A stretch of 64,000 nt of DNA from a candidate division Zixibacteria bacterium RBG_16_53_22 (GTDB lineage Bacteria > Zixibacteria > MSB-5A5 > UBA10806): NCBI GenBank assembly GCA_001775395.1, contig MEWP01000063.1, positions 1-64,000 of the forward strand, in the 5' to 3' direction. Position 1 is the stretch's first letter. Each line of letters opens with the position of its first letter. Below are positions 21,714 through 57,207 of the stretch, in pieces. The position numbers and the translations under genes were made by a program. Under the pieces are notes generated by a model, which was not told where the DNA came from, did no database searches, and saw only the letters and a program-made list of their open reading frames with translations.

Positions 21714-22330
21714 GGGTTGACCACGAAGATGGCTCGGGCAGCTTCTTACGGGCCGAGCTGCGCTGCGATCACTTCTTCGAGTGCAAGGTGGGCTACACCG
21801 ACCAATTGCTGCCCAGTCTGGACAAGGGCGCTTACTATAGTTTCGACCTGAATTATCCATGTTGGGCCTGGCATTATGGAACCGAGCGTGACACGTATTT
21901 AGTTGAGCTGGTCGTCGCTGTCGATGAGGCCGCACTGACACTATCTATCCCACCAAATCCCAATGCCAAACCTGTGTTACCCGGCATCAGTTGGCTGGTC
22001 TTCAGCGACGTTGACCTGCCAGAGCAACCTGACCCAACGCCTATGCCTGTGCCGCCCGACGAACCCGAACCTGATCCACAGCCACCTGCGCCTGTGCCCG
22101 CACCCGATCCAGATTGGGTGCCCAGGACGACTACGTTTGTCCCTGATGGGGTTATATCGCATCCCAAGGCCATCATCTGGGGTGGGAGTGATCTGGTTTG
22201 GGTGTTGCCCAACGATTTATATATGTCCTTCTTCGAGGAGACCTACATGCGCATGGCTGCCCGGCTGAGAGAGGCTATCGAGGCAGGCGAGTATACAGTA
22301 GAGGAAAGGAAAAATGATCTGGTCTTTTAG
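21710..22330 (+). CDS. hypothetical protein with Pro-rich PxPxP linker
   Basis: PEQPDPTPMPVPPDEPEPDPQPPAPVPAPDPDW. Confidence 0.65.
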   Translation: MRVDHEDGSGSFLRAELRCDHFFECKVGYTDQLLPSLDKGAYYSFDLNYPCWAWHYGTERDTYLVELVVAVDEAALTLSIPPNPNAKPVLPGISWLVFSDVDLPEQPDPTPMPVPPDEPEPDPQPPAPVPAPDPDWVPRTTTFVPDGVISHPKAIIWGGSDLVWVLPNDLYMSFFEETYMRMAARLREAIEAGEYTVEERKNDLVF

Positions 22331-22892
22331 CGAGAGCTACCAGCAGCCGACCAGGCTGGATGATTTCAGTCTGGAAGATCGAAACACCATATTGGCAGCC
22401 ATCGACTATTATGGCAAGCAGTTCCAGTTTCCCATTAAGCTGGAGTTGGGGCCTGGGCAACACGGGCCTTCTATTACAGATCGAGTGAAGTTGGGCCTGA
22501 ACCCGCAGGCAGATCCAGGCTGTGAGATATTTTTTGACCTTAACTTCGGACTGCCATTGCCAGGCGAGAGCGTGAGTTATATCCACTCCAACCAGGTACT
22601 TGAGCACTTGAATAACATCATATTCCTATTCAACGAATTCTGGCGTGTGCTTATCCCAGGCGGCACTATGGAGCATTGTGTCCCGATCTACAATGGCCCG
22701 CACGCATGGAGCGATCCCACCCACCGCAGGGCATTTACGGAGCTATCTTTTCGTTATTTCTGTGTAGACGCCAACGGTGAGCCGTTCACAGCACATTTCA
22801 GCGACTATGGCATCACCAGCCGCTTTGTTTTGGAGAAACAGGATGTCAGGCCCGGACTGGACATAACCGCCTTTTTCAAGAAACCTGCTTAG
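22314..22892 (+). CDS. class I SAM-dependent methyltransferase
   Basis: ELGPG..., HSNQVLEHLNNIIFLFNEFWRVLIPGG...HAWSDPTHRRAFTELSFRYF. Confidence 0.8.
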   Translation: MIWSFSESYQQPTRLDDFSLEDRNTILAAIDYYGKQFQFPIKLELGPGQHGPSITDRVKLGLNPQADPGCEIFFDLNFGLPLPGESVSYIHSNQVLEHLNNIIFLFNEFWRVLIPGGTMEHCVPIYNGPHAWSDPTHRRAFTELSFRYFCVDANGEPFTAHFSDYGITSRFVLEKQDVRPGLDITAFFKKPA

Positions 22893-22901
22893 GAGAGTCA
22901 T

Positions 22902-23102
22902 ATGAAACGAGAAGAACCAATAGACATAATCCAGCAATTCTCACAAATGGATACCATGCTGGAAAATATGGCCAAACTGGTTGCGAACTACTTTAATTCG
23001 ATAATGAAAGGTGGCGTTCCATACGATCTCGCAAGAGATTTGACTATTCGGTGGTATGAGCGCATGTTAGACAACATTTATAATCTGAAAAACAGGATCT
23101 AG
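22902..23102 (+). CDS. hypothetical protein (66 aa)
   Basis: ORF with GGAGAGTCAT upstream. Confidence 0.6.
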   Translation: MKREEPIDIIQQFSQMDTMLENMAKLVANYFNSIMKGGVPYDLARDLTIRWYERMLDNIYNLKNRI

Positions 23103-23111
23103 GAAAGTCAC

Positions 23112-23702
23112 ATGAACAATGTAACTGCTGAGAAGTTTCAGGAGATCCAATCAGGCGAGCTGGGATGGTGGACACATGCCAACTTCAACCCACAGATCGA
23201 GTGGAAATTTTATCTCGATGTTTTCGAGTCGCACCTGCGCCCATTCAAACGAGTAGTCGATATTGGCTGTGGGCCGGTGCCTATCTTCATGAACCCCAAG
23301 ATCGAGGCCAGCGAAGTGACAGCCGTCGATCCTTTATGGGAAGAGTACCTGAAGCTGGATAAGTATACCCAGTGGCATACCCGCCCGGTGGATCACCACT
23401 ATGCCGACGTGGACCAGGCACCTTCGCACCAATTCGACGGGGTGTTCTTTTTGAACGCCCTGGACCACGTGCGCTGCCCAAAAGAGACGCTGGATGGCGT
23501 GCAGCGCATCCTGACTTGTGACGGGCTGCTCTTTTTATTCGTCGATATTGACAAGTCGATTGATTATCTCCACCCTCACCGTCTCACTCAGTCGTGGCTC
23601 ATGATGGAGCTAGCTGGTATGGAGACGCTGGTAGTCAAGAATAATCAGAGCTGGAAGCACAAAAACCGGGTAGTGTATTACGTAGGACGCAAGATCACAT
23701 GA
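23112..23702 (+). CDS. class I SAM-dependent methyltransferase
   Basis: VVDIGCGPVPIFM...; FDGVFFLNALDHVRCPKETL. Confidence 0.8.
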   Translation: MNNVTAEKFQEIQSGELGWWTHANFNPQIEWKFYLDVFESHLRPFKRVVDIGCGPVPIFMNPKIEASEVTAVDPLWEEYLKLDKYTQWHTRPVDHHYADVDQAPSHQFDGVFFLNALDHVRCPKETLDGVQRILTCDGLLFLFVDIDKSIDYLHPHRLTQSWLMMELAGMETLVVKNNQSWKHKNRVVYYVGRKIT

Positions 23703-23866
23703 AGAGATTCAGAAAGACGTGGAAGCAACGCCGTAATTCAAAATGCGACTGCGACAGTGGCAGGAAATATAAGCACTGCTGCATGCCGCATAGAGAACGG
23801 GAACCACGCACTCAAACCCATAGGGTAAAGGAAGAACGGCGGAGGGCTAAAAGTGAAACCAGCTAA
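23699..23866 (+). CDS. SEC-C motif microprotein (55 aa)
   Basis: Hand-translated MKRFRKTWKQRRNSKCDCDSGRKYKHCCMPHRER...; ATGA overlap; SEC-C signature C-C-SG-KY--CC. Confidence 0.7.
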   Translation: MKRFRKTWKQRRNSKCDCDSGRKYKHCCMPHREREPRTQTHRVKEERRRAKSETS

Positions 23867-24923
23867 CGTTCTTATTATTATCATCGATTGTCTTCGTTAC
23901 GACAGAGTTAGTCCACAGTACATGCCCTGGCTATATGAATTTGGGCAACAGAATACTTGGTTCTCGAATTATTGGTCAACGTCCCACTGCACAGATCCAT
24001 CGATTACGTCTCTATTGAATGGTCGCTGGCCTGACGAACTCAAACTATATTCGATGATGTTCGAGTCCTATGACTATAGTATCCCACTTGGCGTCGAGAT
24101 GCTGCCACAGACCGCCAAAAAGCATGGCTACGAGACAGGCACACTCAGTAACCTGGGTCGCTGGTATACCTGGGGTGTAGACCGCTATGTAAACACTCGT
24201 GGCTGGCATGGCAGTGACATCTTCAAGTATGCAGACAGTATTATGTCAGTCATGAAACAGCCCTGGCTCATGATCGTGCACGACGACAGTTGCCACACAA
24301 ACTACCGGGGTGGCTCTTACGACCAGGCTTGTCGGGAGGTGGACAGCGACCTGGAGTGGCTGATCGGGCGGGTATTGAAGCACCAGCAGTGGACCGATAA
24401 CACTTTTGTCATCGTCACCGCTGATCATGGCGAGGGGCTGGGTGAACGCGGCATCGACCAGCACGGGAGAGGTCTGTGGCCCTTCCTGACGCACGTGCCA
24501 TTGATCATCCGCCAGCCCCGCGTTGCAAAAGCGTTATCCGTGTACGATGGGATTGTGCAACCAGTTAACATGCATGGTTTTATGGTCAACTGTATGTCGA
24601 TAGCACCTGAAGCATGGCCGCCCGGTATGAATGTGGATAAGAATGGCTATGCCCACATGGTTGGGCGCGATCCAAAGGTGTGGAACCGGGGCGTGACCAA
24701 TGGCAAGCATATGGTCATCAAGCGCCAGGAAGTCGGGGGGCCAACTACTATGTTCTACCTGGACATAGCCAGCGATCAATTGCTTGAGCCAGACGACCGC
24801 TACTACGAGATGTGGCACTATGCCCAAGAGCACGCCGCGCAGTTCGGCATCGACGCGGGCAACGATAGCCTGGACGACGAGATACTGGAGGCCAGGCTGA
24901 AAGGACTCGGTTATTTTGACTAG
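23853..24923 (+). CDS. sulfatase/alkaline-phosphatase-superfamily protein
   Basis: NVLIIIIDCLRYD; CTDPSITSLLNGRWP; VTADHGEGLGERG. Confidence 0.8.
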   Translation: MKPANVLIIIIDCLRYDRVSPQYMPWLYEFGQQNTWFSNYWSTSHCTDPSITSLLNGRWPDELKLYSMMFESYDYSIPLGVEMLPQTAKKHGYETGTLSNLGRWYTWGVDRYVNTRGWHGSDIFKYADSIMSVMKQPWLMIVHDDSCHTNYRGGSYDQACREVDSDLEWLIGRVLKHQQWTDNTFVIVTADHGEGLGERGIDQHGRGLWPFLTHVPLIIRQPRVAKALSVYDGIVQPVNMHGFMVNCMSIAPEAWPPGMNVDKNGYAHMVGRDPKVWNRGVTNGKHMVIKRQEVGGPTTMFYLDIASDQLLEPDDRYYEMWHYAQEHAAQFGIDAGNDSLDDEILEARLKGLGYFD

Positions 24924-25508
24924 ATGTGGCAGGCTGAATTTCTGGCTGTCAAACGCTTCATCGACGACATGAGGATAGACCCAACCCAGGGCAAAGCTAT
25001 CGAGGTGGGTGGTGGACCTATCGTCGTGGTAGACGACAAGCCACAAGACAACCCGCTACTCAGCCTCAGCCCACAGGTAACTTTCTTGGACGAGGGCTTT
25101 ATCACTCGCTATGGCAAGCCGCCCCATATCCTGGCTGACTTCATGAGCTGGTCGGAGATCAGCCACCTGGCAGGCAGCTTCGACCTGGTTTACTCATTTC
25201 AGACTATGGAGCACGTCAATAACCCATTCCTGTTTGTGCGACATTTAGTAGCCATAACCAAGCCAGGTGGAGCGATCTTCCTGACTACCGTCTTCTCCTT
25301 CGCCTACCACCCCAGTCCATCCGATTACTGGCGCTTCAGCCCGCAGGGGTTGCAGGAGTTATTCAAGCAAGCGGGCGACAACATGTTATTATGGGCTGGC
25401 TTTGGGCCAAACCAGGGCGGCGTGATCGCCGTAGCGCAGCGAACACCAGCTACATACTGGGCCTATCCCAACAAGCTCCGGTTCGAGGAGGTCTTGGGCA
25501 AGCTATGA
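24924..25508 (+). CDS. class I SAM-dependent methyltransferase
   Basis: FDLVYSFQTMEHVNNPFLFVRHLVAITKPGGAIFLTT...DYWRFSPQGLQELF. Confidence 0.8.
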   Translation: MWQAEFLAVKRFIDDMRIDPTQGKAIEVGGGPIVVVDDKPQDNPLLSLSPQVTFLDEGFITRYGKPPHILADFMSWSEISHLAGSFDLVYSFQTMEHVNNPFLFVRHLVAITKPGGAIFLTTVFSFAYHPSPSDYWRFSPQGLQELFKQAGDNMLLWAGFGPNQGGVIAVAQRTPATYWAYPNKLRFEEVLGKL

Positions 25509-26098
25509 TCGACAAGAATTATGTCGCGTCTATGATGACCAAAGAGGCACTGTACATGGGGGGGCACGGGGCCGAGGAGGACTACCTAGGCTTGGGCATG
25601 CTGTACTATGCCATCACCTATGTTCTGAAAGCGGAGTTGTGCGTTTGCCTTGGCTCTGGGGGTGGTTTCGTGCCCAGGTGCATGCGCCAGGCCCAACGCG
25701 ATTTGGGGATAGGCAGAACTATTTTAGTGGATGTGGGCAATGGCGCTTGGGGCAGGACCACAGTCCACGATGTAAATAGCTGGTTTAGACTCAATTTCCC
25801 TGACGTGGAAGTCTGGAAGATGTTGACTGCTGAAGCTGCGCTCATGATCAAACATGCTGACTATATCCACACCGATGCTGATCACAGCTTTGAGGGTGTA
25901 AAAACGGACTTCATGGCCTATAGCCAAATCCTGGAACCAGATGGCATCATCACTTTGCACGATACTCATATCCAGGGCGTGCGGAGTTTTGTAGACGAGC
26001 TGAGTACCCATAGTGAGTGGCAGGTATTAGAATTACCTATGTGGCAGGGGCTTGCCATAGTCATGAGAGCCGATGGACTGGAAATATCTACAAAGTGA
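25505..26098 (+). CDS. Methyltransf_24-like SAM methyltransferase
   Basis: ELCVCLGSGGGFVP...ADYIHTDADHSFEGVKTDFMAYSQILEPDGIITLHDT; start corrected to 25505 (ATGA overlap). Confidence 0.75.
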   Translation: MIDKNYVASMMTKEALYMGGHGAEEDYLGLGMLYYAITYVLKAELCVCLGSGGGFVPRCMRQAQRDLGIGRTILVDVGNGAWGRTTVHDVNSWFRLNFPDVEVWKMLTAEAALMIKHADYIHTDADHSFEGVKTDFMAYSQILEPDGIITLHDTHIQGVRSFVDELSTHSEWQVLELPMWQGLAIVMRADGLEISTK

Positions 26099-26591
26099 GC
26101 CATTTCAATTACGCTACGTACTGGCTGCATACTTAGTGCGGTATTGCATGGATGTCATCGAGATCGGGGGCTGTGAAATACCTATCCACGTCTTTATGGA
26201 TTTGCGAAACCATGGCTCCATAACAGTGGTCGATCCGCGTATGAAAACAGGTTTTACCATTGACAACAAAAGGCAAATCGCCAGTGTTGTGCATATAAAC
26301 AAACCCATTCAGGAATGTCACTTCCCATACTCGGAGTTCGGGTTGGTTATATTAGGCATGCACATCCAGGGCGACTTGGAGCCAGTCTTTGACCTGGTTA
26401 AGCGATCCAAAGTAACCGTGATCGATTTCTCACTCGACTTTAAGCCCAGTGTTGACCAATTTAATCAGATGCTTCAGGCCACGCAACGACCGATCCGTAT
26501 GCAATTCAAATTGGATCTGACTGGCAATGACTTCGGAGACCTGACAGATAGCTGGCCCGCCAGACCCATCAGGCAGATGTACGTATTATGA
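26073..26591 (+). CDS. methyltransferase-fold-like protein, divergent
   Basis: DVIEIGG...ITVVDPR. Confidence 0.5.
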   Translation: MDWKYLQSEPFQLRYVLAAYLVRYCMDVIEIGGCEIPIHVFMDLRNHGSITVVDPRMKTGFTIDNKRQIASVVHINKPIQECHFPYSEFGLVILGMHIQGDLEPVFDLVKRSKVTVIDFSLDFKPSVDQFNQMLQATQRPIRMQFKLDLTGNDFGDLTDSWPARPIRQMYVL

Positions 26592-27145
26592 GACCTAGCC
26601 AACACCCCGATTGGAATAGCATATTCGGCTGGTGCGTAAAATTCGAGGCTGACTATCTGTACGAAATTGCTCGCAGTGTGACCGGCAATATCGTAGAGAT
26701 CGGCACTTATCAGGGCCGATCCATGGTTGCTATTGGCCTGGGCTGTCTCGAATCGGGTGCTCATCTGTACACCGTGGATCATTACCTGGGCAGCCCGGAG
26801 CACAGGACACCGCCTGCCAAAGAAGTCGTGGTTCAAAACCAGTTCAAATTTGGCCTCATGCGACACGTAACGGTGTTAGAAGGCGATAGCCAGGTGGTTG
26901 TGCCTACTATCGAGGCCAGTTTTGACATGGCCTATATCGACGGCACACATTCATATAGAGCTGTGTTCGACGACTTTCTGGTATGCTGGAAGAAACTGAC
27001 CAGCCATGCCAACATTCTGTTCCACGATGCCTACAAGGGTGGTTGGACAGAAGTTGAGGATGCGGTTAAGCAGATCGCCATGCGCTGGCCTATGGAACAA
27101 GTGAACGTAGCGGGGTCTATCGTTCACTTCAGAAAGATGACGTAA
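26588..27145 (+). CDS. Methyltransf_24-like SAM methyltransferase
   Basis: NIVEIGTYQGRSMVAIGLG...DMAYIDGTHSYRAVFDDF...LFHDAYKGG. Confidence 0.8.
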   Translation: MRPSQHPDWNSIFGWCVKFEADYLYEIARSVTGNIVEIGTYQGRSMVAIGLGCLESGAHLYTVDHYLGSPEHRTPPAKEVVVQNQFKFGLMRHVTVLEGDSQVVVPTIEASFDMAYIDGTHSYRAVFDDFLVCWKKLTSHANILFHDAYKGGWTEVEDAVKQIAMRWPMEQVNVAGSIVHFRKMT

Positions 27146-27155
27146 GGAGAGCCAT

Positions 27156-27485
27156 ATGGAATTGCTATTCGGGCCGGAACATTCAGATGAAAACAGGTAT
27201 TTTGTGCAGGAAGAAATGTGCAAAGCCCTGGCGCATCAGATGTTCTATGTCCAGGATGGATACAGCAACGAATTACCAGTGCCACACTATCATGTGATGA
27301 GGGCATATAAGCATCTGGTGGCCCTGAATAGGCTCAAGATAGTCATGTTCGATCATGATATTGGTAAAGACGCAGGCGCGCCTCTTAACAACGACTTATA
27401 CTGTCTGAAAGGTGAGGTTGTTTACGAGCTACTCGTTTTGCGTAAGAATGTCGATGAATTGATCGACAAGCTGAGAGGAGACTGA
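27156..27485 (+). CDS. hypothetical protein (109 aa)
   Basis: ORF, RBS AAGGAGAGCCAT. Confidence 0.65.
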   Translation: MELLFGPEHSDENRYFVQEEMCKALAHQMFYVQDGYSNELPVPHYHVMRAYKHLVALNRLKIVMFDHDIGKDAGAPLNNDLYCLKGEVVYELLVLRKNVDELIDKLRGD

Positions 27486-27487
27486 CC

Positions 27488-27832
27488 GTGAGAAAGCTGA
27501 CATTGTTGTTGACCGTGTTTCTATTGACGAGTTGTGTGGTGCCCATCGTCACCCCGGAAGGCTATGGCTTAGCATCGCAGCCCACGCCTATCCCGACTTT
27601 GACGGCGACACCTGAGCCGACTAGTACGCCTGCACCTGTGGTAGACTCAGAAGGTGAATATTATCGGGGTATCTACGATTTATGTCGCTGGCTCATCCAG
27701 CAGACAGGCCACTATGTCGATTGCATGGCCTTTGTAGAACGATCTAATACCAGCGGTTGGTACGAGCAACCATCCAAGGATTGGCAGTGGCCTCTGCCCG
27801 CGCCAACAGTGGCACCAGGTACGTCCCTGTAA
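27488..27832 (+). CDS. lipoprotein
   Basis: Signal peptide with lipobox LLTSC; TPIPTLTATPEPTSTPAP linker. Confidence 0.8.
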   Translation: MRKLTLLLTVFLLTSCVVPIVTPEGYGLASQPTPIPTLTATPEPTSTPAPVVDSEGEYYRGIYDLCRWLIQQTGHYVDCMAFVERSNTSGWYEQPSKDWQWPLPAPTVAPGTSL

Positions 27833-28230
27833 TGCTGCTAACTCTGTACCTTTTATTCAGGCTAGTCATCGGCGGCGTGGTGGATACGCCTATCCAGCCA
27901 TGCCAGTGTGTCGTGGTCGAATACCAGGGCGCGACCGCTCTCAAGTGCGCCGTACCTGACCAGGTGGCCTGCTATCACGAGTGGCGACCAGGCAGCTTGC
28001 TGGTAAATGGGCATAACCCCGGCGTGTTCAGCCGCCTGGATGAAGTCGAAGTCGGGGATGCTATGGTCGTGACCATAGACGGCGTGACGACCACCTACTA
28101 CGTGACGACCAAAGAGGTGGTCAGGCGCGATGATCACCAGCGTTACACCGAGCTGGCTAATGTGCCAGGTGTGCTAATCGTCACCTGTTATGGTGAGCAC
28201 CATAGGCTTTTGGTTAAGGGGGAAATATGA
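27832..28230 (+). CDS. sortase-like transpeptidase with N-terminal TM
   Basis: LVNGHNPGVFSRLDEVEVGDAMVVTIDGVTTTYYVTTKEVV...ELANVPGVLIVTCYGEHHRLLVKG: His, TxTC-type Cys and Arg in sortase order; start corrected to ATG 27832 (TAATG overlap). Confidence 0.8.
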   Translation: MLLTLYLLFRLVIGGVVDTPIQPCQCVVVEYQGATALKCAVPDQVACYHEWRPGSLLVNGHNPGVFSRLDEVEVGDAMVVTIDGVTTTYYVTTKEVVRRDDHQRYTELANVPGVLIVTCYGEHHRLLVKGEI

Positions 28231-29180
28231 AGCTGGCTCATGTAAGTCTTTTCAAGCGGCACCATGGGAATGAGTACCACGCGGGAGGTGTCGAAAAGTT
28301 TGCCTTCTTTTTGAATATGGCCTTCCCGGAGATGAAGTGTTACTCTATCCAGGACTTGCCCATACCCATCCAACCCGGTACACCCGACTACAAGATCGCT
28401 GAGATCCTCAATAACTGGCTTCTGGGCGAGGGGCTGGTAGATGAGAACACCACCGTTATCGGCGATGGTTTTTGGACACTGGGTCTGGAGGGCAAGGTAG
28501 GCAGGTTGATCTCTGTAATTCATGGTGCCTATTTCGGCACTGCATTGGAATATGAAAAGTACCCCAACCCTGAAGAGACGCACGTGGGCGAGTGGGCCTT
28601 GATCCAGGAGGAAGTCTGGAAAGATCCACGGGTCGAGGTTGTGTCGGTCAGCAACCGTTCAGCTTTGGAACTTATGACTGTGTGCGGTATTCCGTCGCAT
28701 GTTATATCTCATGGGCTGCCCCTGGACATCTATAAGCCAGATGGCAAGCCTAAGAGTCGCCTGGTCTTGCACACCTCTGTGAGCTTCAGGAAGGGCCGAG
28801 ATATGATCGAGAAGATCAAAGCCTTCGGCAAGTTCGACATTCAACAACTCGGCTTCGCGCGAAGCGGAGACATGGCAGAGGAAGTAAGACTCTGGAATCG
28901 GGGTGGCATCTTCCTGAACCCAACTAGATTTGAAGGGAACCATTATTCGATACTGGAAGCTCTGGCCTGTGGATTAGTGCCAGTGGCTTACTTGACAGGC
29001 GTCACCTATGACTTTCCCTGCCACGTGGCCGAGACCACAGATGACTTCCACGAACACCGCTTCGTGATGATGCTTGAGAATGCCATGGAGTATTACTCGA
29101 ACTATTTCCCGCGTGAGTGGGCCTGTGAGAACCTGGACTTCGACATATGGGCAGCCAAGTGGAGGGCTTATCTGAAATGA
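28227..29180 (+). CDS. glycosyltransferase (GT4-like)
   Basis: LVLHTSVSFRKGRDMI...GIFLNPTRFEGNHYSILEALACGLVPVA. Confidence 0.8.
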   Translation: MKLAHVSLFKRHHGNEYHAGGVEKFAFFLNMAFPEMKCYSIQDLPIPIQPGTPDYKIAEILNNWLLGEGLVDENTTVIGDGFWTLGLEGKVGRLISVIHGAYFGTALEYEKYPNPEETHVGEWALIQEEVWKDPRVEVVSVSNRSALELMTVCGIPSHVISHGLPLDIYKPDGKPKSRLVLHTSVSFRKGRDMIEKIKAFGKFDIQQLGFARSGDMAEEVRLWNRGGIFLNPTRFEGNHYSILEALACGLVPVAYLTGVTYDFPCHVAETTDDFHEHRFVMMLENAMEYYSNYFPREWACENLDFDIWAAKWRAYLK

Positions 29181-29428
29181 AAGAGCCACTTAAGCCATTG
29201 AGGGCTAACCAGCTAATTGAGACGTTAGCATGCTCAAGAACTAAAGACAACATGGGACACTTTCTCAATTATGAGTTATACATCTCAGATGGGATACAAC
29301 TATTTCCCATGAACAAACTTTACTTCGATATTGATAGGAAGATACTGATTTTCGTACCAGAGCATGTCAAAATTGACCTGGAAAAGTTTTACGACAGACT
29401 TGAGGTAAAGGATGATGCACAAAATTGA
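29177..29428 (+). CDS. hypothetical protein
   Basis: ORF; start corrected to MKEPLKPL at ATGA overlap. Confidence 0.6.
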   Translation: MKEPLKPLRANQLIETLACSRTKDNMGHFLNYELYISDGIQLFPMNKLYFDIDRKILIFVPEHVKIDLEKFYDRLEVKDDAQN

Positions 29429-29687
29429 GTTTAAGTCAGAAAAGCTGGCGCGTTATGGGATCGTCGTGGCTGGGGACATCCAGGAGCTAGTCAAAATGAT
29501 GAACGAGATAGATGATGGTTGGTATCCACTTGGTGGCCCATTTCAAAGAATAAATGACTTTGGCAAATTACCTCTTGTATGCCAGGCTGTGGTGCGTGAG
29601 CCTAAACATTCGCTATGGAAGCTAACTGTAAATGGTGTAGAATTCGTACAAAAGGATAGTACAACCGATGCAGCCACTAGTAGTTGA
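29412..29687 (+). CDS. hypothetical protein (91 aa)
   Basis: ORF. Confidence 0.6.
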   Translation: MMHKIEFKSEKLARYGIVVAGDIQELVKMMNEIDDGWYPLGGPFQRINDFGKLPLVCQAVVREPKHSLWKLTVNGVEFVQKDSTTDAATSS

Positions 29688-32600
29688 TATTCCAACCAAG
29701 AACCGCCCGCGTGAACTGGGTCGCTGTCTGGCAGCCTTGCTGGCACAGACCTACCAGAAATTCGATCTTCTAATCGTTAATGACAATACTACCTTGCCAG
29801 TAGATTTCGACGAGGTTACGGCTGAGTGGCTGAAGCGCCACAAGGATCGCCGCCAGGTGTGGATCGAGAAAGGCACAGGCATGAGTCAGGTATACGCCCA
29901 TAACCTGGCTTTGTGGCAGCGTCCCTGGTGTGAGTACGAGTTCATCCTACGCATGGACGACGACATTCTGCTTAACTCGCGGGCTATCGAGATCATGCTG
30001 AACGCCATTCGATCCAACGTAGACATTGCCGCAGTATCAGGTCTATGGTTTGAATCAGAGACTAACGAAAACTGGTTCTCAGATCGTGATGTGCCAACCG
30101 CCGAGGAGTGGCAAAATAGCCTGGAGCTACATGGCAAAGCGGTGAATGGCATAGTCAGCAATTGGCACCAACGCTTATACCACGATTATCGCCCCAACGG
30201 CCAGGGTGAAATCATCGGTGCACCCATGGCGGTCCAGCATCTCTATTCAGCCTGTCTATATCGCGCCGCAGATATGCGTCGGGCAGGTGGCTGGCCTGAA
30301 ATCTATAGTCAGGGCATTCATCACGGCGAAGAAAGTGATGGCACATTCAGATTGGGGGCGACTAGTAAGAGATTGTGGGTCTTGCCTCAAGTCACCGGTC
30401 AACACTTACGCGCCTCTGGTGGCATCCGCAGTGCTGGTTTGGAATTGGAACACAGGACACGCCTGATCGACGATCCACTGCGCAACGAGCGCCTGCGGGC
30501 TATGCCGGGTGTATACGACCGTCCCATCAAAGTTGGTCTGTGGGGCCAGCATAGTATCTTCACGGGTGGTGGCCCGCGCATGTTCTTCGAGTTGTTGGCA
30601 GCCTTGCAGAGTGATCCAAACCTCGAAGTCTATCCAGTGGGCGATCACATGCCTTGCCACGACGTAGAGCGTGTGTTCGGCATTCACGTCGAGGATTGCA
30701 ACGCGCTGCCAGAAGAGTTGGACGTATTGATCCAACTGGGCGATGATCTGGACTGGTTCGGCAACGAGGCGATCTATATACCACCTGCCAAGTCCAAGAC
30801 GCTGTTTATCTACTACCCTTTCGGAAATAGAGCGCCGGAATTGGACGAGTTCACCCACATTGTCACCTTAAGCCAGTTCGTGGTAGACGAGATCGCTCGA
30901 CTGTGGCGGCGCAAGGCTCAATATATCTATCCGGTGGCTCACAGTATTCCACCTCTGAAGAAGCACAATTGGATACTGGTGCCCGGTCGTGTCGATCAAT
31001 GGAAGGGCACACTTTGGCTCATGGAAGCCTTCGCCGAGATGGACCTGAAGGGCTGGCAACTATACGTGGTAGGGGCTACCGAGGGCTCCATCCAAAAAGA
31101 CTACATCCAGCAGGTCAATAATTTTGCCAAAACGCACGAGAATGTACACCTCGATTTCGACGTGAGCCAGGCCAAGCTAGAAGAATATTATGGCAAGTCC
31201 AAGATCATGTGGGCAGCCAAGGGCATGCTGGCGGACGAGCACCCAGAGTTGAGCCGTGAGGCCGAGCACTATGGGCTGACACCCCTGGAGGCTATGAGTG
31301 CCGAGTGCGTACCACTGGTGTATGACTTAGGAGGGCATAGAGAGACTACAGAGGAGATTTTACGTTGGAAAAGCAAGGAAGATCTATTTCAAAAAACACA
31401 CGACTTAATTGATACAAGGTTTGTCTTTTATGACATATCCAGCTTCTTCGACAGGGAGCTGTTCAAAGAGCAATGGCTGCGCGTGGTGTACGAGTGCAAT
31501 GCCAAAACTTCCAGGCTGGAGGCAGTCAGGCTGGAAGTCACCGAGAACAGGCGACCCATCATCTTCGTCGTCACAGACAGCCCGCGTAAGCGCACGGGCT
31601 TTTCCACAGTAGCCCAACAGGTCGTGCCTGGCTTTGTCGAGCAAGGTTGGGACGTGCGCTGGTATGCTATCCTGGATGATAAGGAACCCATGCCAGGCGA
31701 GTTCGACTTTACCTTCATTCCCATGGCCGAGAGCGACATGCAGGGAGACAAGAGGTTGCTCAGGAAGATCATCCAACACGAGCCGGACGTGATCTGGGCA
31801 CTATACGACGCGGGCAACCTGTATAAGTACCTGGTCTTCAGCGAGTTCGGGGCTCAGACACATAAGTCAGATGGATCACTCCGGCCATGCGTGGCCTACT
31901 TCCCGGTCGAGGGTCTGCCGCTCCCATCTTATTACGGTGGCATGGTGCAGCATGTGCTGCGCTCAGGCGGGCAGGCTATTACCTACACCGAAGGTAGCGC
32001 CCAGGTTGTTATGGATCAATTTGAGGGCTTAAAGGTGGATTGGGCATGGCACGGTCTGGACCATGCTTGCTTCGAGCCTTATCCAACTGCCGACCGTAAG
32101 CACTTACGCCAATTGGTGGGGTTGGACAATTATTTTATCGTCGGCACTTTCGGCATCAACAAACGCACCAAGCAATTCGATACGCTGATCTATGCTGCCT
32201 GGTTCATCAAAGAGTGGGGGGAGGACAAGGATGTGCGGTTTTATTGCCACACTGAACCTAACGATCCTATCCTGCAAGGCTATCCCCTGAACGAAATGAG
32301 CAAGATCTACGGTGTAGAACATATGTTCTTATGGAAGCCGGATAGCTACTCACAGCGGGGTGGCAAGTATACTGGCGTCGAGTTCAGCAACAACAGCATG
32401 GATGAAGCCAAACGGCTAACCATGCCACCTACTGCCGAGGGGCGGGGCTACCTGCTGGGCCACTACGACATCATAGCTCGCTACAACTTACTGGATCTAT
32501 ATGCCGATGTTTCATCGGTGGAAGGCTGGGGACTTTGCGTCGGCGAGGCTTTGCGCTGTGGTGTGCCTGCCATCTCGGTAGACGATGGATCTGTACGCAG

Positions 32601-32862
32601 TGAGATCTATGGCGATGCGGCGCTCATGCTCAAGCCTACTTACGATTGGAGCACCTGGCACATCGGAGCCCGCCTAGCTCTGGTCCATCCAGAGGCAGTT
32701 GCCCGCGCTATTCTGGAGATGCGCGATAACCACGAATTGAGAAAAGAGTATGCCGAGCGGGGACGGGCAGCTACCGCTAAATATGTATGGCAGCCTACCC
32801 GCGATAAGATGGTAGCAGCCGTCAGGCAAGCATTGAGTCCAACACTTGGACTCGCCAAGTAG
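29668..32862 (+). CDS. multidomain glycosyltransferase (GT2 followed by two GT4-like domains)
   Basis: N-term PTKNRPRELGRCLAALLAQTYQKFDLLIVND...RMDDDILL; middle VPGRVDQWKGTLWLMEAF...GLTPLEAMSAECVPLVYDLGG; C-term VSSVEGWGLCVGEALRCGVPAISVDDG. Confidence 0.85.
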   Translation: MQPLVVDIPTKNRPRELGRCLAALLAQTYQKFDLLIVNDNTTLPVDFDEVTAEWLKRHKDRRQVWIEKGTGMSQVYAHNLALWQRPWCEYEFILRMDDDILLNSRAIEIMLNAIRSNVDIAAVSGLWFESETNENWFSDRDVPTAEEWQNSLELHGKAVNGIVSNWHQRLYHDYRPNGQGEIIGAPMAVQHLYSACLYRAADMRRAGGWPEIYSQGIHHGEESDGTFRLGATSKRLWVLPQVTGQHLRASGGIRSAGLELEHRTRLIDDPLRNERLRAMPGVYDRPIKVGLWGQHSIFTGGGPRMFFELLAALQSDPNLEVYPVGDHMPCHDVERVFGIHVEDCNALPEELDVLIQLGDDLDWFGNEAIYIPPAKSKTLFIYYPFGNRAPELDEFTHIVTLSQFVVDEIARLWRRKAQYIYPVAHSIPPLKKHNWILVPGRVDQWKGTLWLMEAFAEMDLKGWQLYVVGATEGSIQKDYIQQVNNFAKTHENVHLDFDVSQAKLEEYYGKSKIMWAAKGMLADEHPELSREAEHYGLTPLEAMSAECVPLVYDLGGHRETTEEILRWKSKEDLFQKTHDLIDTRFVFYDISSFFDRELFKEQWLRVVYECNAKTSRLEAVRLEVTENRRPIIFVVTDSPRKRTGFSTVAQQVVPGFVEQGWDVRWYAILDDKEPMPGEFDFTFIPMAESDMQGDKRLLRKIIQHEPDVIWALYDAGNLYKYLVFSEFGAQTHKSDGSLRPCVAYFPVEGLPLPSYYGGMVQHVLRSGGQAITYTEGSAQVVMDQFEGLKVDWAWHGLDHACFEPYPTADRKHLRQLVGLDNYFIVGTFGINKRTKQFDTLIYAAWFIKEWGEDKDVRFYCHTEPNDPILQGYPLNEMSKIYGVEHMFLWKPDSYSQRGGKYTGVEFSNNSMDEAKRLTMPPTAEGRGYLLGHYDIIARYNLLDLYADVSSVEGWGLCVGEALRCGVPAISVDDGSVRSEIYGDAALMLKPTYDWSTWHIGARLALVHPEAVARAILEMRDNHELRKEYAERGRAATAKYVWQPTRDKMVAAVRQALSPTLGLAK
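32835..32853. repeat. dispersed palindrome copy GAGTCCAACACTTGGACTC
   Basis: Read directly; last codons of 29668..32862 (SPTLGLAK). Confidence 0.95.
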
Positions 32863-51919: not shown

Positions 51920-53182
51920 TTGAAACGAATAGCGATTATGTCAACCTTCTTCGAGGCCACCAGCGGCTACTCGCTCATCGGCGTAGCCGAGACGCAAATC
52001 CGCATGCTGCTGGATCATGGTTACGAGCCGGTGGTGCTCGTGCAGGATAATTTTACGTCACCTCCATCTCCCACACTCTGGTCAGAAACCATGATAGATT
52101 TGCGTAAATGCCTGCCCTTCATGCACTTACGCACCGACGTGGCCCCCGATTTTGAAGAGAGGGTTAGCAAGATCGAAGCAGCCCTGGCAGAGCACTTGGC
52201 TGATGTCAATGTCTGCATCACGCACGATATTATGCTTCAGGACTTCTACAAGGAGCACAACGCAGCCGTGCGGCGCTATGCCAAAAGTAGACCCGACTTA
52301 CTTTGGCTTCATTGGCTGCACAGTTGCCCCTCACCCAGCAATGAGGCCCAATACCCCAACGCCCTGCGCTATATCTCGCCACCAGGCTTTCTCGTGTATC
52401 CTAACTCGACCGATCTAAGCCGTGTGTGCCAGACCTACCATCTGGGCGGGCAAGAGTGGCGTGCCAAAGCCTGCCGCGCCGGGCACGCCATCGATCCCTT
52501 GCGAGTGTGGCATTACGACCCTTTGACAGTCGATCTGGCGACCAGGGCCAGATTGCTGTCGGGTGAGGTGGTAGCGGTCTATCCAGCCAGATTGGATCGT
52601 GGAAAACAGCCAGAGAAGATCATCTATCTCATGGCAGGTGTCAAAGAGGCTGGCTACGAGCCACGCCTGCTGGTCATCGACTGGCAGAGCGCCGGGCAGC
52701 GTTTCCAGCAGTACATCGATGAGTTATTGGCCTTGAGTGAGAGCCTGGGTCTGGGCGATTGTGTTAGTTTTACCTCACGCCTGGATGACCGCTGTAGCCA
52801 GGGCGTGCCACGTCACGTGGTTGTGGAGCTGATGGATCTGTCCAATACGTACATTCATCCCAGTCGGGTGGAAACCTATAGCTTGGTAGTCCACGAAGCC
52901 GCTCTGCGCGGTAAGCTGCTATGTCTCAACCATGACCTGCCACCCATGCGTGAGCTATTTGGGGATAACAGCATCTTTTTCGACTTCGAGAGTGACCGCT
53001 TCAGCCGCAGGTACGAGCCGGATGAGCGTATCTTCTGGCAGGGTGAGGCCAAACGTCTGATCGCCGAGTTGAAACAGAACCGGGCTTTGTGGGCACAGAC
53101 GGTGGCCCGCAGAGAGTGGACACCCGAAGCCATGTGGAAAGAATTCGAGACGCTATTTTTCCTGGAGTCAGTCGGTGAGTGA
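51920..53182 (+). CDS. glycosyltransferase (GT4-like)
   Basis: VVAVYPARLDRGKQPEKIIYLMAG...YIHPSRVETYSLVVHEAALRGKLLCLNHDLPPMRELFG. Confidence 0.75.
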   Translation: MKRIAIMSTFFEATSGYSLIGVAETQIRMLLDHGYEPVVLVQDNFTSPPSPTLWSETMIDLRKCLPFMHLRTDVAPDFEERVSKIEAALAEHLADVNVCITHDIMLQDFYKEHNAAVRRYAKSRPDLLWLHWLHSCPSPSNEAQYPNALRYISPPGFLVYPNSTDLSRVCQTYHLGGQEWRAKACRAGHAIDPLRVWHYDPLTVDLATRARLLSGEVVAVYPARLDRGKQPEKIIYLMAGVKEAGYEPRLLVIDWQSAGQRFQQYIDELLALSESLGLGDCVSFTSRLDDRCSQGVPRHVVVELMDLSNTYIHPSRVETYSLVVHEAALRGKLLCLNHDLPPMRELFGDNSIFFDFESDRFSRRYEPDERIFWQGEAKRLIAELKQNRALWAQTVARREWTPEAMWKEFETLFFLESVGE

Positions 53183-53756
53183 TTATCACAGTCTGATGCG
53201 TAATTGGTCAGATACCTGGTTTATGGGTGTGCAGTGTAGTCAGTACGCTGTAGACTTCGTGTTGTGGGAACGCCTGCTGAACCATAACCCTGACGTGGAT
53301 CGCATCATCGAGCTGGGTACACTGTGGGGCGGTTTCAGCCTTTTCTTGTTTTTACAAGCCCTACAGCGCAATATGACATTTATCACCTTCGATGATGGAT
53401 CATATGCAGTTACACAATGCAAGACTGATGGTCCACTGGCTGTTGATACGCCACTTGGACAAAGACTCGATCTGACTGATCACTGTGTACATGGCAATGT
53501 ATTCGATGATTGCTACGAGATAGTGACTTCATATTTGCAAGGCCCAGGCCGCTGTGTCTTGTTCTGTGACGACGGCAATAAGCCCAAAGAGTTTGCTACC
53601 TTCGCGCCACTTGCCAAGCCAGGCGACATCATCGTGGTGCACGATTGGGGCACCGAGATACTGGAGCAGCACATCGACTATGATTTGGTGGACGAGATCA
53701 TGGCAGAGGATTGCCATAGCCTGGGCAGCCTGAGCCATTTCTTCATCAGGAGGTAA
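53175..53756 (+). CDS. class I SAM methyltransferase-like (CmcI-like)
   Basis: DRIIELGTLWGGFSLFL...FITFDDGSY...CVLFCDDGNKPKEF..FAPLAKPGDIIVVHDWG. Confidence 0.7.
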   Translation: MSDYHSLMRNWSDTWFMGVQCSQYAVDFVLWERLLNHNPDVDRIIELGTLWGGFSLFLFLQALQRNMTFITFDDGSYAVTQCKTDGPLAVDTPLGQRLDLTDHCVHGNVFDDCYEIVTSYLQGPGRCVLFCDDGNKPKEFATFAPLAKPGDIIVVHDWGTEILEQHIDYDLVDEIMAEDCHSLGSLSHFFIRR

Positions 53757-53757
53757 T

Positions 53758-54012
53758 ATGGCAGGTAGAAACATCAACGTCTGGATCGAGAACTGGACCA
53801 ACGATGGCGTGAACGTTCAGGTGCCGCGTTATTCGGTTAGCGTGCGCATCGAGTGGACTAAAGCGGACGGCACGCCTGGTAGCCACGAGAATGCCTACAG
53901 GTTTCCCAACGCACTGCAAAACGTGCCGGTGGCACGTCTGCGGCGCTACATGGAGGAGATCATTTTGCGTGAGGTACGGATTCAATTGGGCATAGACGAG
54001 GCGCAGGAATGA
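53758..54012 (+). CDS. hypothetical protein (84 aa)
   Basis: ORF. Confidence 0.65.
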   Translation: MAGRNINVWIENWTNDGVNVQVPRYSVSVRIEWTKADGTPGSHENAYRFPNALQNVPVARLRRYMEEIILREVRIQLGIDEAQE

Positions 54013-55385
54013 CTACCTATTATGTCGGCTCCGGTGGCAATGACGGCAATGACGGCCTTACATGGGGCGCGAGAAAATTGACCCTCAACGGGGTCGAAGA
54101 CATTCCCGTCGTAGCAGGCGATACCGTCTACGTCGCGCCGGGCGTCTATCGAGAACTACTGACCTGTGACGTATCTGGCTCGGCGGGTAATCCTATCACT
54201 TATATCGGTGATGTGACGGGCGAGCATACTGATGGCATAGGTGGCATCGTGCGTGTCACTGGCAGTGACAACGATACGAGCACTGCCAGGAATTATGGCA
54301 TCACCGGCACTGGGCGGAATTTCCGCACTTTTCGCGGCTTCCGTATCGATGCATGCACGCTGGACGGCATTATTCTCGACGGCACGAACTGGATCGTCGA
54401 GGATTGCGCCATATTCGACACCACTCGGTATGGCATTTACGTAAACGGGGCCAACCAGGCCAGTAACACATTCCGGCGCTGTTGCATGTTCGGCTGCAAA
54501 CAGACGGGCATCCTATTTTATCATAGTGCCGACGTAGCCGGGACGAGCCAACTGGTCGAGAATTGCTTAATTCTCGATTCCGACTACGGCCTGCACAGCC
54601 TGATCGAAGTTTGGAACATCGATGGAATCACTATCAAACATTGCCTGCTGAGCGGCGGCATCGGCGCGGGTGTCCGCGTCCAGGCCAACACAGGCAACCC
54701 CATGGTCACTGTACGCAATTCGATGATCCAAAACTGCTGGCGAGGATTCAACGCCGTGGCCGCAGGCGACATCGACGAGAATTATAATAATCTGTACGGC
54801 AACAACGCGAATCGGACTAACACGAACATCGGTGCCAACTCGACGACGTACCCGCCCCTGCTGGCAGCGCCACTACTATTGGACGGCATCAGGCTGCCGT
54901 GGTGGTTCGGTAGGCTCTCGGAATGGTCAGCCATGCGGCAATTGACAGGGGAAAGCATGTCAGACGACGACCTGTCCGGCATCACGCGCCCGGCAACGGA
55001 CAGTAAGAAATCGTGGGGAGCAGTGCAGTTCCAACCCATGGTGCGTGAGGCAACCACGGTGCGTACCGGGGCAGCCAGCCTGGAACTGTCCGACGCGGGC
55101 GAGCACCAGATCATAGTGCCGGTATCCAATGAGAGCACGACCATCAGTGTCTATTGCTACCGCGAGGCGGACTATACTGGGACCAACCCACGTATGGTCA
55201 TCAAGCAGCCTGGGCAATCTGATCGGACTACGACCGACGCTGGTGCGGCCTCGCAATGGAATCAACTGACAGACACCTTCACCCCGGCAGCCATCCCGCC
55301 CTACGTGGTGGTATGCCTGCAAAGTCTGAACACAGCAGCAGCTACGGATTTCAAGGTCTATTTCGATGACTTGGTGGTTTCATAA
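54009..55385 (+). CDS. right-handed parallel beta-helix tailspike-like protein
   Basis: Repeated GI..DG/NWIVEDCAIFDT..YGIYVNGA...NTFRRCCMFGCKQTGI. Confidence 0.75.
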   Translation: MTTYYVGSGGNDGNDGLTWGARKLTLNGVEDIPVVAGDTVYVAPGVYRELLTCDVSGSAGNPITYIGDVTGEHTDGIGGIVRVTGSDNDTSTARNYGITGTGRNFRTFRGFRIDACTLDGIILDGTNWIVEDCAIFDTTRYGIYVNGANQASNTFRRCCMFGCKQTGILFYHSADVAGTSQLVENCLILDSDYGLHSLIEVWNIDGITIKHCLLSGGIGAGVRVQANTGNPMVTVRNSMIQNCWRGFNAVAAGDIDENYNNLYGNNANRTNTNIGANSTTYPPLLAAPLLLDGIRLPWWFGRLSEWSAMRQLTGESMSDDDLSGITRPATDSKKSWGAVQFQPMVREATTVRTGAASLELSDAGEHQIIVPVSNESTTISVYCYREADYTGTNPRMVIKQPGQSDRTTTDAGAASQWNQLTDTFTPAAIPPYVVVCLQSLNTAAATDFKVYFDDLVVS

Positions 55386-56885
55386 GTGGCAAACCCACAA
55401 AACCCAGGCACCTTCGATTTCTGGATCACCGACCGGCTGGCCTTCCAAAATGCGCCGCCCCGGTCGGGTGATACAGGCACGTTCGACAACTGGGTTACAG
55501 ACAGGGTTTATTTCCAGGATTATGTCGAAGCTGCTGGCGAGGCATCCAGCAGCAGCTCGTCCAGCTCTTCGTCATCCAGCTCAAGTTCTTCCTCTAGTTC
55601 TAGTTCATCGAGTACTAGCTCGTCCAGTTCTTCATCATCCAGCTCCAGCAGCAGCTCGTCGTCCAGTTCTAGCTCATCTTCATCGAGTAGCTCAAGTACG
55701 TCGAGCAGCAGCAGTTCATCGAGTTCAAGTTCTAGCTCGTCGAGCACTAGTTCGTCTTCATCCAGTTCAAGCTCATCTTCGAGTAGTAGTAGCTCATCCA
55801 GTTCGTCGTCTTCGTCTAGCAGTAGCTCAAGCTCCTCAACGAGTTCATCTTCTAGTTCGAGCACAAGTTCCTCGTCTAGTAGTTCTAGTTCTTCATCTTC
55901 GTCCAGCAGCTCAAGTTCATCGTCGAGCTCGACTAGTAGCTCATCTTCATCGTCGAGCAGTAGTAGTTCGTCGTCGTCTAGCTCCAGTAGTTCCAGCTCA
56001 TCATCTAGCAGCAGTTCAAGTTCCAGCTCGTCGTCTAGCTCTAGCTCGACAAGCTCTAGCAGCTCTTCGAGTTCAAGCAGTAGCACTTCATCGTCGTCAT
56101 CTAGCTCGACTAGTAGTTCTAGTTCGAGTTCATCCAGCAGCTCTTCGTCGAGTAGCAGCAGCTCAAGTAGCTCAAGCTCGACTACCAGCTCATCGTCTAG
56201 CTCAAGCAGTTCCTCAAGTTCATCGTCTAGCAGTTCCAGTTCATCTTCATCCAGCAGCAGCTCGTCATCCTCAAGCTCGACCAGTAGCTCTAGCAGCACA
56301 TCTGAATCATCAAGTTCGTCGAGCAGCTCAAGTTCGAGTTCATCGAGTTCGAGCAGCAGCAGTTCCAGCTCATCATCCAGCTCCAGTTCGTCGAGCAGTA
56401 GCTCTACATCGTCCAGTAGTTCCAGCTCGTCATCTAGCTCAAGCAGTAGTAGTTCTAGCAGTAGTTCATCTTCGAGTTCGTCCATCTCAAGTAGCAGTTC
56501 GACTTCTATATCCAGCAGTTCCAGCTCGTCCAGCAGTAGCTCGTCATCGAGTAGCTCTTCAAGCTCATCTAGCAGTACATCTGTATCGTCGTCCAGCAGC
56601 AGCTCAAGCTCAGGCAGTAGTAGCTCGTCTTCGTCCAGCTCGTCTTGGTCATCCAGTAGTTCGAGTTCATCCAGCAGTATATCCAGCGTATCCTCGTCTT
56701 CGAGCAGCAGCTCGACTTCAATTTCAAGTTCAAGCAGCTCGATTAGTATCCAATACCAGCCTGATGCACTGGACTTCAACGTGACTATCTCACGCCTGAG
56801 TCTAGAATTCGACGTGGAGTGTGCGGATACACTGGACTTCGACGTAGAGTATACAGATACGCTGGACTTCAATGTAGAGAGGTAA
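55386..56885 (+). CDS. poly-serine virion-associated protein (Ser tract 55545-56750, about 400 residues)
   Basis: Codon-level reading; N-term TFDFWITDRLAFQ/TFDNWVTDRVYFQ repeats; C-term DALDFNV..LEFDV..DTLDFDV..DTLDFNV repeats. Confidence 0.85.
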   Translation: MANPQNPGTFDFWITDRLAFQNAPPRSGDTGTFDNWVTDRVYFQDYVEAAGEASSSSSSSSSSSSSSSSSSSSSSSTSSSSSSSSSSSSSSSSSSSSSSSSSSSTSSSSSSSSSSSSSSSTSSSSSSSSSSSSSSSSSSSSSSSSSSSSSSTSSSSSSSTSSSSSSSSSSSSSSSSSSSSSSTSSSSSSSSSSSSSSSSSSSSSSSSSSSSSSSSSSSSSSTSSSSSSSSSSSTSSSSSSSTSSSSSSSSSSSSSSSSSSSSSSSTTSSSSSSSSSSSSSSSSSSSSSSSSSSSSSSSTSSSSSTSESSSSSSSSSSSSSSSSSSSSSSSSSSSSSSSSSTSSSSSSSSSSSSSSSSSSSSSSSSSISSSSSTSISSSSSSSSSSSSSSSSSSSSSSTSVSSSSSSSSSGSSSSSSSSSSWSSSSSSSSSSISSVSSSSSSSSTSISSSSSSISIQYQPDALDFNVTISRLSLEFDVECADTLDFDVEYTDTLDFNVER

Positions 56886-56889
56886 TTTT

Positions 56890-57204
56890 ATGGAAGCACA
56901 CCACAATGATATTGGTACGATCCTACGCCTGACGGTGCGCCGTCAGGATGGCAACGTGGAAAGCGGTCTGGGCTTGGCTACCAATCTATACATCTACCTG
57001 ACGCCGCCCAGTGGCGTAGATAAGACCAAGGCAGCCGTATTAAGCAGCAATGGATCTGACGGGAAAATGCAATACGTCACCGTGAATGGCGATCTGGATG
57101 AGACAGGCTCCTGGCAGATCCAGGGCTACATCAAGTTCAGCAATAGCCAGATATTCAAGACCAGCGTGCGCCAGTTCAACGTGCTGGCGAATTTGGTGCC
57201 GTAG
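56890..57204 (+). CDS. BppU-N-like baseplate/tail protein
   Basis: NDIGTILRLTVRRQDGNVESGL...YLTPPSGVDKTKAAVLSSNGSDGKMQYVT...GSWQIQGYI. Confidence 0.6.
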   Translation: MEAHHNDIGTILRLTVRRQDGNVESGLGLATNLYIYLTPPSGVDKTKAAVLSSNGSDGKMQYVTVNGDLDETGSWQIQGYIKFSNSQIFKTSVRQFNVLANLVP

Positions 57205-57207
57205 TAT

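Follow-up and report, generated by a model that had tools for sequence, protein, structure and literature searches.

The window analysed here comprises the first 64,000 nucleotides of contig MEWP01000063.1, which is binned with a candidate division Zixibacteria genome (GCA_001775395.1), and within it two small overlapping genes form the subject of this report (Table 1). The first encodes a predicted lipoprotein composed of a signal peptide (MRKLTLLLTVFLLTSC), the lipobox LLTSC, a TP-rich linker and a small two-Cys domain, and its Shine-Dalgarno sequence is strong. The TAA stop of this gene overlaps the ATG of the second gene (TAATG), the TGA of which in turn overlaps the ATG of the gene that follows (ATGA). 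Judged by these junctions, the second gene is translationally coupled to the lipoprotein gene. A programmed frameshift fusing the two products was considered and set aside, as inspection by eye revealed no slippery heptamer at the overlap. The lipoprotein has no family match in Pfam, NCBIfam or PHROG, and tblastn found no match to it in 50,697 phage records.

The full contig (94,133 bp) is phage from end to end by inspection, with no terminal repeat and no recognisable bacterial flank. It carries a T4-like terminase, a Mu-like portal, a major head protein, a tape-measure-sized protein, a sliding clamp and DNA methyltransferases. The second gene lies in a tailed phage, as the earlier note had it. 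The cassette that contains the gene pair is placed between the portal and capsid genes, and its methyltransferase, sulfatase-family and glycosyltransferase neighbours suggest modification of the surface or of glycans rather than an operon for pili or LPxTG proteins. Within the virion region, 22314-32862 and 51920-59646 of the window encode an unusually large number of methyltransferases, along with the sulfatase-family protein and glycosyltransferases of several domains. Very long poly-serine tracts mark two large proteins encoded at 55386-56885 and 59647-64800 (contig numbering, as the window ends at 64000); one of them has LamG-like stretches, several glycosyltransferase genes adjoin, and both are candidates for O-glycosylated tail or fibre proteins.

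Table 1. Genes, codons and predicted features of the sortase locus, in window coordinates
Feature	Position	Strand	Basis
Upstream cassette: five methyltransferase-family proteins, a sulfatase-family protein (23853-24923) and one protein without family	22314..27145	+	Pfam
Predicted lipoprotein gene, 114 aa, GTG start	27488..27832	+	Sequence; KD17 2.42; SD GAGGAG
Compact phage sortase gene, 132 aa, ATG start	27832..28230	+	PF04203 E=1.5e-12; phmmer to PDB sortases E=6e-5; AF2 and Foldseek
Hydrophobic N-terminus, putative membrane anchor or signal peptide	27832..27882	+	KD17 2.19; helix in single-sequence model; topology inferred
Predicted catalytic His61 codon (GHN)	28012..28014	+	Invariant column, 14-sequence alignment
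Predicted catalytic Cys119 codon (IVTC)	28186..28188	+	Invariant column; strand E96-103 of trimmed model
Predicted catalytic Arg125 codon, Cys+6, unusually short beta7-beta8 turn	28204..28206	+	Invariant column; strand E107-114 of trimmed model
Next cassette gene, glycosyltransferase-like	28227..29180	+	Weak Glyco_trans_1_4, below cut-off
Multidomain glycosyltransferase, GT2 and GT1 domains	29668..32862	+	PF00534 E=1.5e-18, PF00535 E=2.8e-12

Sortases cut bacterial surface proteins and then re-attach them covalently, and the 132-residue product of the second gene is almost certainly a member of this family. It matches PF04203 with 47.8 bits against a gathering cut-off of 26.6 bits, and its sequence matches in the PDB are sortases. 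A separate sortase profile scores it at 115 bits, a value inflated by the inclusion of the protein itself, whereas the Pfam score is free of that inflation; with the same profile, neither any of 5,000 shuffled versions nor any other open reading frame of the contig exceeds 9.7 bits. On these scores the match to sortases is far beyond chance. Codon usage in this frame is also phage-like, scoring 0.12 where the other two frames score -0.44 and -0.51, and its GC3 is 0.68. The best NCBIfam scores came from class D (37.6, cut-off 165), class C (33.4, cut-off 160) and the generic sortase model TIGR01076 (29.6, cut-off 39.35), followed by GN (27, cut-off 158), F (23.7, cut-off 166) and E (16.2, cut-off 160), and because all of these lie below their cut-offs the protein falls outside every named class, though C and A are the closest by sequence and fold. 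Close relatives were absent from IMG/VR, 85,462 GTDB species, 50,697 phages and 72,556 plasmids, as searched with 8-mer patterns or tblastn, and tblastn against GenBank phages returned nothing even at E<=10. A degenerate motif, GHx4FxxLx5GDx41TC, recovered from IMG/VR only the contig itself and three chance non-sortases.

The residues expected of a sortase active site are all present in the sequence. His61 lies in GHNPGVFSRL, Cys119 in LIVTCYG and Arg125 in HHRLLVKG, and each aligns with an invariant residue of 13 other divergent sortases, drawn from cellular genomes and IMG/VR, in a 14-sequence alignment that also conserves the F..L and Gly-Asp motifs. The earlier note had given this reading frame, these three motifs and a sortase-like identity, and all of them stand, the family cut-off being exceeded in PF04203 and no class-level cut-off (C, D, E, F or GN) being reached. 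In common with PF04203/C60 sortases, the protein has the His-Cys-Arg set, the GxxFxxLxxxxxGD and [LIV]xTC motifs and a predicted beta-barrel. It differs from them in its total length, in having about 10 residues fewer between the first strand and His, in passing no class-level cut-off, in having no sorting-signal partner that we could find, and in the spacing of Arg, which is Cys+6 here and about Cys+9 to Cys+13 in the known enzymes. An exact-spacing pattern, which is strict and therefore only indicative, and which also accepts Ser codons, found no cellular sortase with Arg at Cys+6 in 85,462 GTDB species; its seven matches were five class-GN proteins with a later Arg and two chance occurrences. 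Read from the alignment, the gene encodes a minimal sortase with a complete predicted catalytic set.

Structural prediction points in the same direction. An AlphaFold2 model built on the 14-sequence alignment reached a pLDDT of 76 and a pTM of 0.75, and a Foldseek search of the PDB with this model gave 74 matches at E<=1e-3, of which the 50 listed were all sortases, with a best TMq of about 0.67 among them. The alignment behind this model itself consisted of sortases. A single-sequence model was poor (pLDDT 57), yet all 50 of its listed PDB matches were again sortases. Cys119 and Arg125 sit in the paired last two strands of the alignment-based model. The phage protein is thus predicted to adopt the sortase beta-barrel, the fold that its proposed identity calls for.

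Membrane insertion or export of the enzyme is likely from its N-terminus, where 17 residues have a mean KD of 2.19. The earlier note had read this stretch as a transmembrane segment; the hydrophobic segment is there, but as an anchor it is weak, with Arg10 inside it and no basic residue ahead of it. Because the segment is short and contains this Arg, anchoring is probable rather than certain. The partner gene is as the earlier note described, with its lipobox, TP-rich linker and a stop overlapping the sortase start. The C-terminus of the lipoprotein (...WPLPAPTVAPGTSL) has neither a hydrophobic segment nor a basic tail, and a C-terminal sorting signal is absent from it. An LPxTG-type C-terminal signal was likewise found in no open reading frame of the 94-kb phage, and no PF00746 sorting-signal match in the bin genome rose over the cut-off, so that the LPxTG-like signals for which the earlier note proposed a search were found in neither place and no substrate can be named. 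The true host may nevertheless encode substrates.

Sortases in tailed phages had been described in the earlier note as rarely reported, which is true but overstated. A Foldseek search of viral models (BFVD) led from the phage sortase to gp43 of Streptomyces phage TP1604, which is compact and secreted, carries AHN and SC motifs and is of a kind present in 20 Streptomyces phage records. It belongs to phrog_17228, with Samy gp76, Zuko gp45 and Frankenweenie gp208 among the other members, a family annotated as 'cysteine protease/peptidase'; the Samy record cites PDB 4D70, a sortase D5, and the Samy prophage paper leaves sortase unmentioned. A home-made profile of six Streptomyces phage members scores our protein at 20.7 bits (best of 5,000 shuffles, 9.3), though phrog_17228 is not among its hmmscan matches at E<=10. 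Both kinds are small and predicted to be secreted, with [AG]HN and [ST]C motifs and a short N-terminal half. The Streptomyces phage proteins alone have a long proline-rich linker and an Arg out of the canonical register (C+11/12), and their gene neighbourhoods differ. The phrog_17228 proteins of L040 (34395-34991) and L041-L045 look like compact secreted sortase-like enzymes.

A further form occurs on two phage-like IMG/VR contigs of 86-93 kb, which carry class-C sortases (L037:5560-6318 and L038:5560-6318; PF04203 E of about 1e-25). Both match phrog_22228 weakly and that of L037 also phrog_23668, which are PHROG families of unknown function. These rumen-phage-like cases share with ours a sortase inside a phage genome and no adjoining LPxTG gene; they differ in being 252 aa long, with standard class-C spacing, a C-terminal TM and an adjoining NinI-like phosphatase. 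The GenBank phage records matched by class-A and class-C queries were all without annotation, many being short pieces of entries split into several contigs, and these look like bacterial contamination. K08600 (sortase B) is among the viral auxiliary genes listed in a gut virome study (PMC13011395), and a literature search for the phrase 'phage-encoded sortase' found no paper. Given this gene, the Streptomyces phage set and the IMG/VR pair, phages carry sortases of at least three dissimilar types, mostly unlabelled. Phage sortases are uncommon rather than new, and the compact 132-aa form is a new variant of a known enzyme; its compact Streptomyces phage relatives suggest recurrent phage use.

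The assignment of a host requires more caution. The bin that holds the contig is of the metagenome type, with 169 contigs and no 16S. Its only PF04203 match is the phage gene, and a PF04203 and protein-query search over 133 genomes of the phylum, in which three control genomes gave the expected matches, found no sortase besides it. Two readings fit this: a phage that supplies a sortase to a lineage lacking one, or a contig placed in the wrong bin. Mis-binning is a possibility to which several observations point, none of them decisive: no other sortase, related capsid or matching DNA was found in the bin lineage, oligonucleotide usage differs (correlation of 0.40 between phage and bin, 0.67 within the bin), and the length of the contig far exceeds that of eight sampled contigs of the bin (<=47 kb). 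Capsid searches of the phylum found no related phage or prophage, terminase searches for related prophages there gave only weak or partial matches, and terminase 8-mers found no related phages. A 20-kb piece of the phage (14000-33990), compared with the bin's family for CRISPR-spacer or other DNA matches, matched only itself. RecU- and FtsK/SpoIIIE-type genes on the contig lean weakly towards a monoderm host.

The best explanation of these data, to which we assign a probability of roughly 45%, is that a compact sortase, acting at the envelope and partnered by the lipoprotein, remodels host surface proteins. The enzyme would be made with the lipoprotein from the same operon and would probably operate on the external side of the infected cell's cytoplasmic membrane. 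There, Cys119 would attack a threonine-containing motif in the target surface protein, giving a thioacyl intermediate, assisted by His61 and Arg125, and the surface protein would then be released by hydrolysis or joined to a new amine by transpeptidation. The most likely role is remodelling of the host surface in late infection or lysogeny, since genes of methyltransferase, sulfatase and glycosyltransferase type surround the pair in the interval from portal to capsid; surface proteins might, for example, be trimmed or re-anchored so that other phages cannot adsorb. The lipoprotein would serve as partner rather than substrate. Against this explanation stand the want of a sorting signal in the phage, or over the cut-off in the bin, and of any other sortase in the bin, as well as the weak N-terminal anchor, the shortened region before His and the lack of a close homologue that could show selection on the active site.

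The main rival, doubtful on present evidence, is a plain secreted protease, that is, a sortase-fold cysteine endopeptidase and not a transpeptidase, which would cut and release an envelope protein of host or phage, such as a receptor or a lysis or exclusion factor. The annotation of the compact Streptomyces phage proteins is in keeping with this, as is the failure to find an anchoring substrate in the phage, and binding of the acceptor might be changed by the short turn between Cys and Arg and by the loss of the N-terminal segment; our protein, however, keeps the canonical Arg and the TC motif, whereas the Streptomyces phage family has no Arg in register. Rather improbable is a cargo gene that is decaying or neutral and now serves no function in the phage, for although no searched collection holds a close homologue and the N-terminal half is trimmed, the frame is intact and phage-like in codon usage, tightly coupled to both neighbours, and retains every catalytic residue.

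The proposal of the earlier note that the sortase links the neighbouring lipoprotein covalently to the cell wall, so as to exclude superinfecting phages, now appears quite improbable. The stop-start overlap of the two genes speaks for it, and superinfection-exclusion lipoproteins are a known kind in phages, as illustrated by Ltp of S. thermophilus phage TP-J34 (PMC3952083). The lipoprotein, however, bears no C-terminal sorting signal, matches no known family and is by prediction already lipid-anchored. Least credible is the companion idea that the enzyme joins virion proteins covalently during assembly, the poly-serine tail or fibre candidates for instance, for while the cassette lies among structural genes and the poly-serine proteins are encoded in the virion region, no sorting motif was found in these proteins, the hydrophobic N-terminus points to the membrane, and virions assemble in the cytosol.

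Work on sortases treats them both as enzymes that anchor bacterial surface proteins and as tools for protein ligation. In its broadest form, the remodelling reading would be that tailed phages of unrelated hosts repeatedly took up sortases and shrank them into a compact secreted host-surface remodelling enzyme, and that this phage brings one into a phylum without any, a generalization that we regard as unlikely. The 132-residue version described here, with all of its catalytic residues, taken together with compact phage relatives that are at present annotated only as peptidases, would imply covalent editing of the host protein surface by phages, a way of masking receptors or excluding superinfection that has been little explored. 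This version could also be among the smallest natural sortases.
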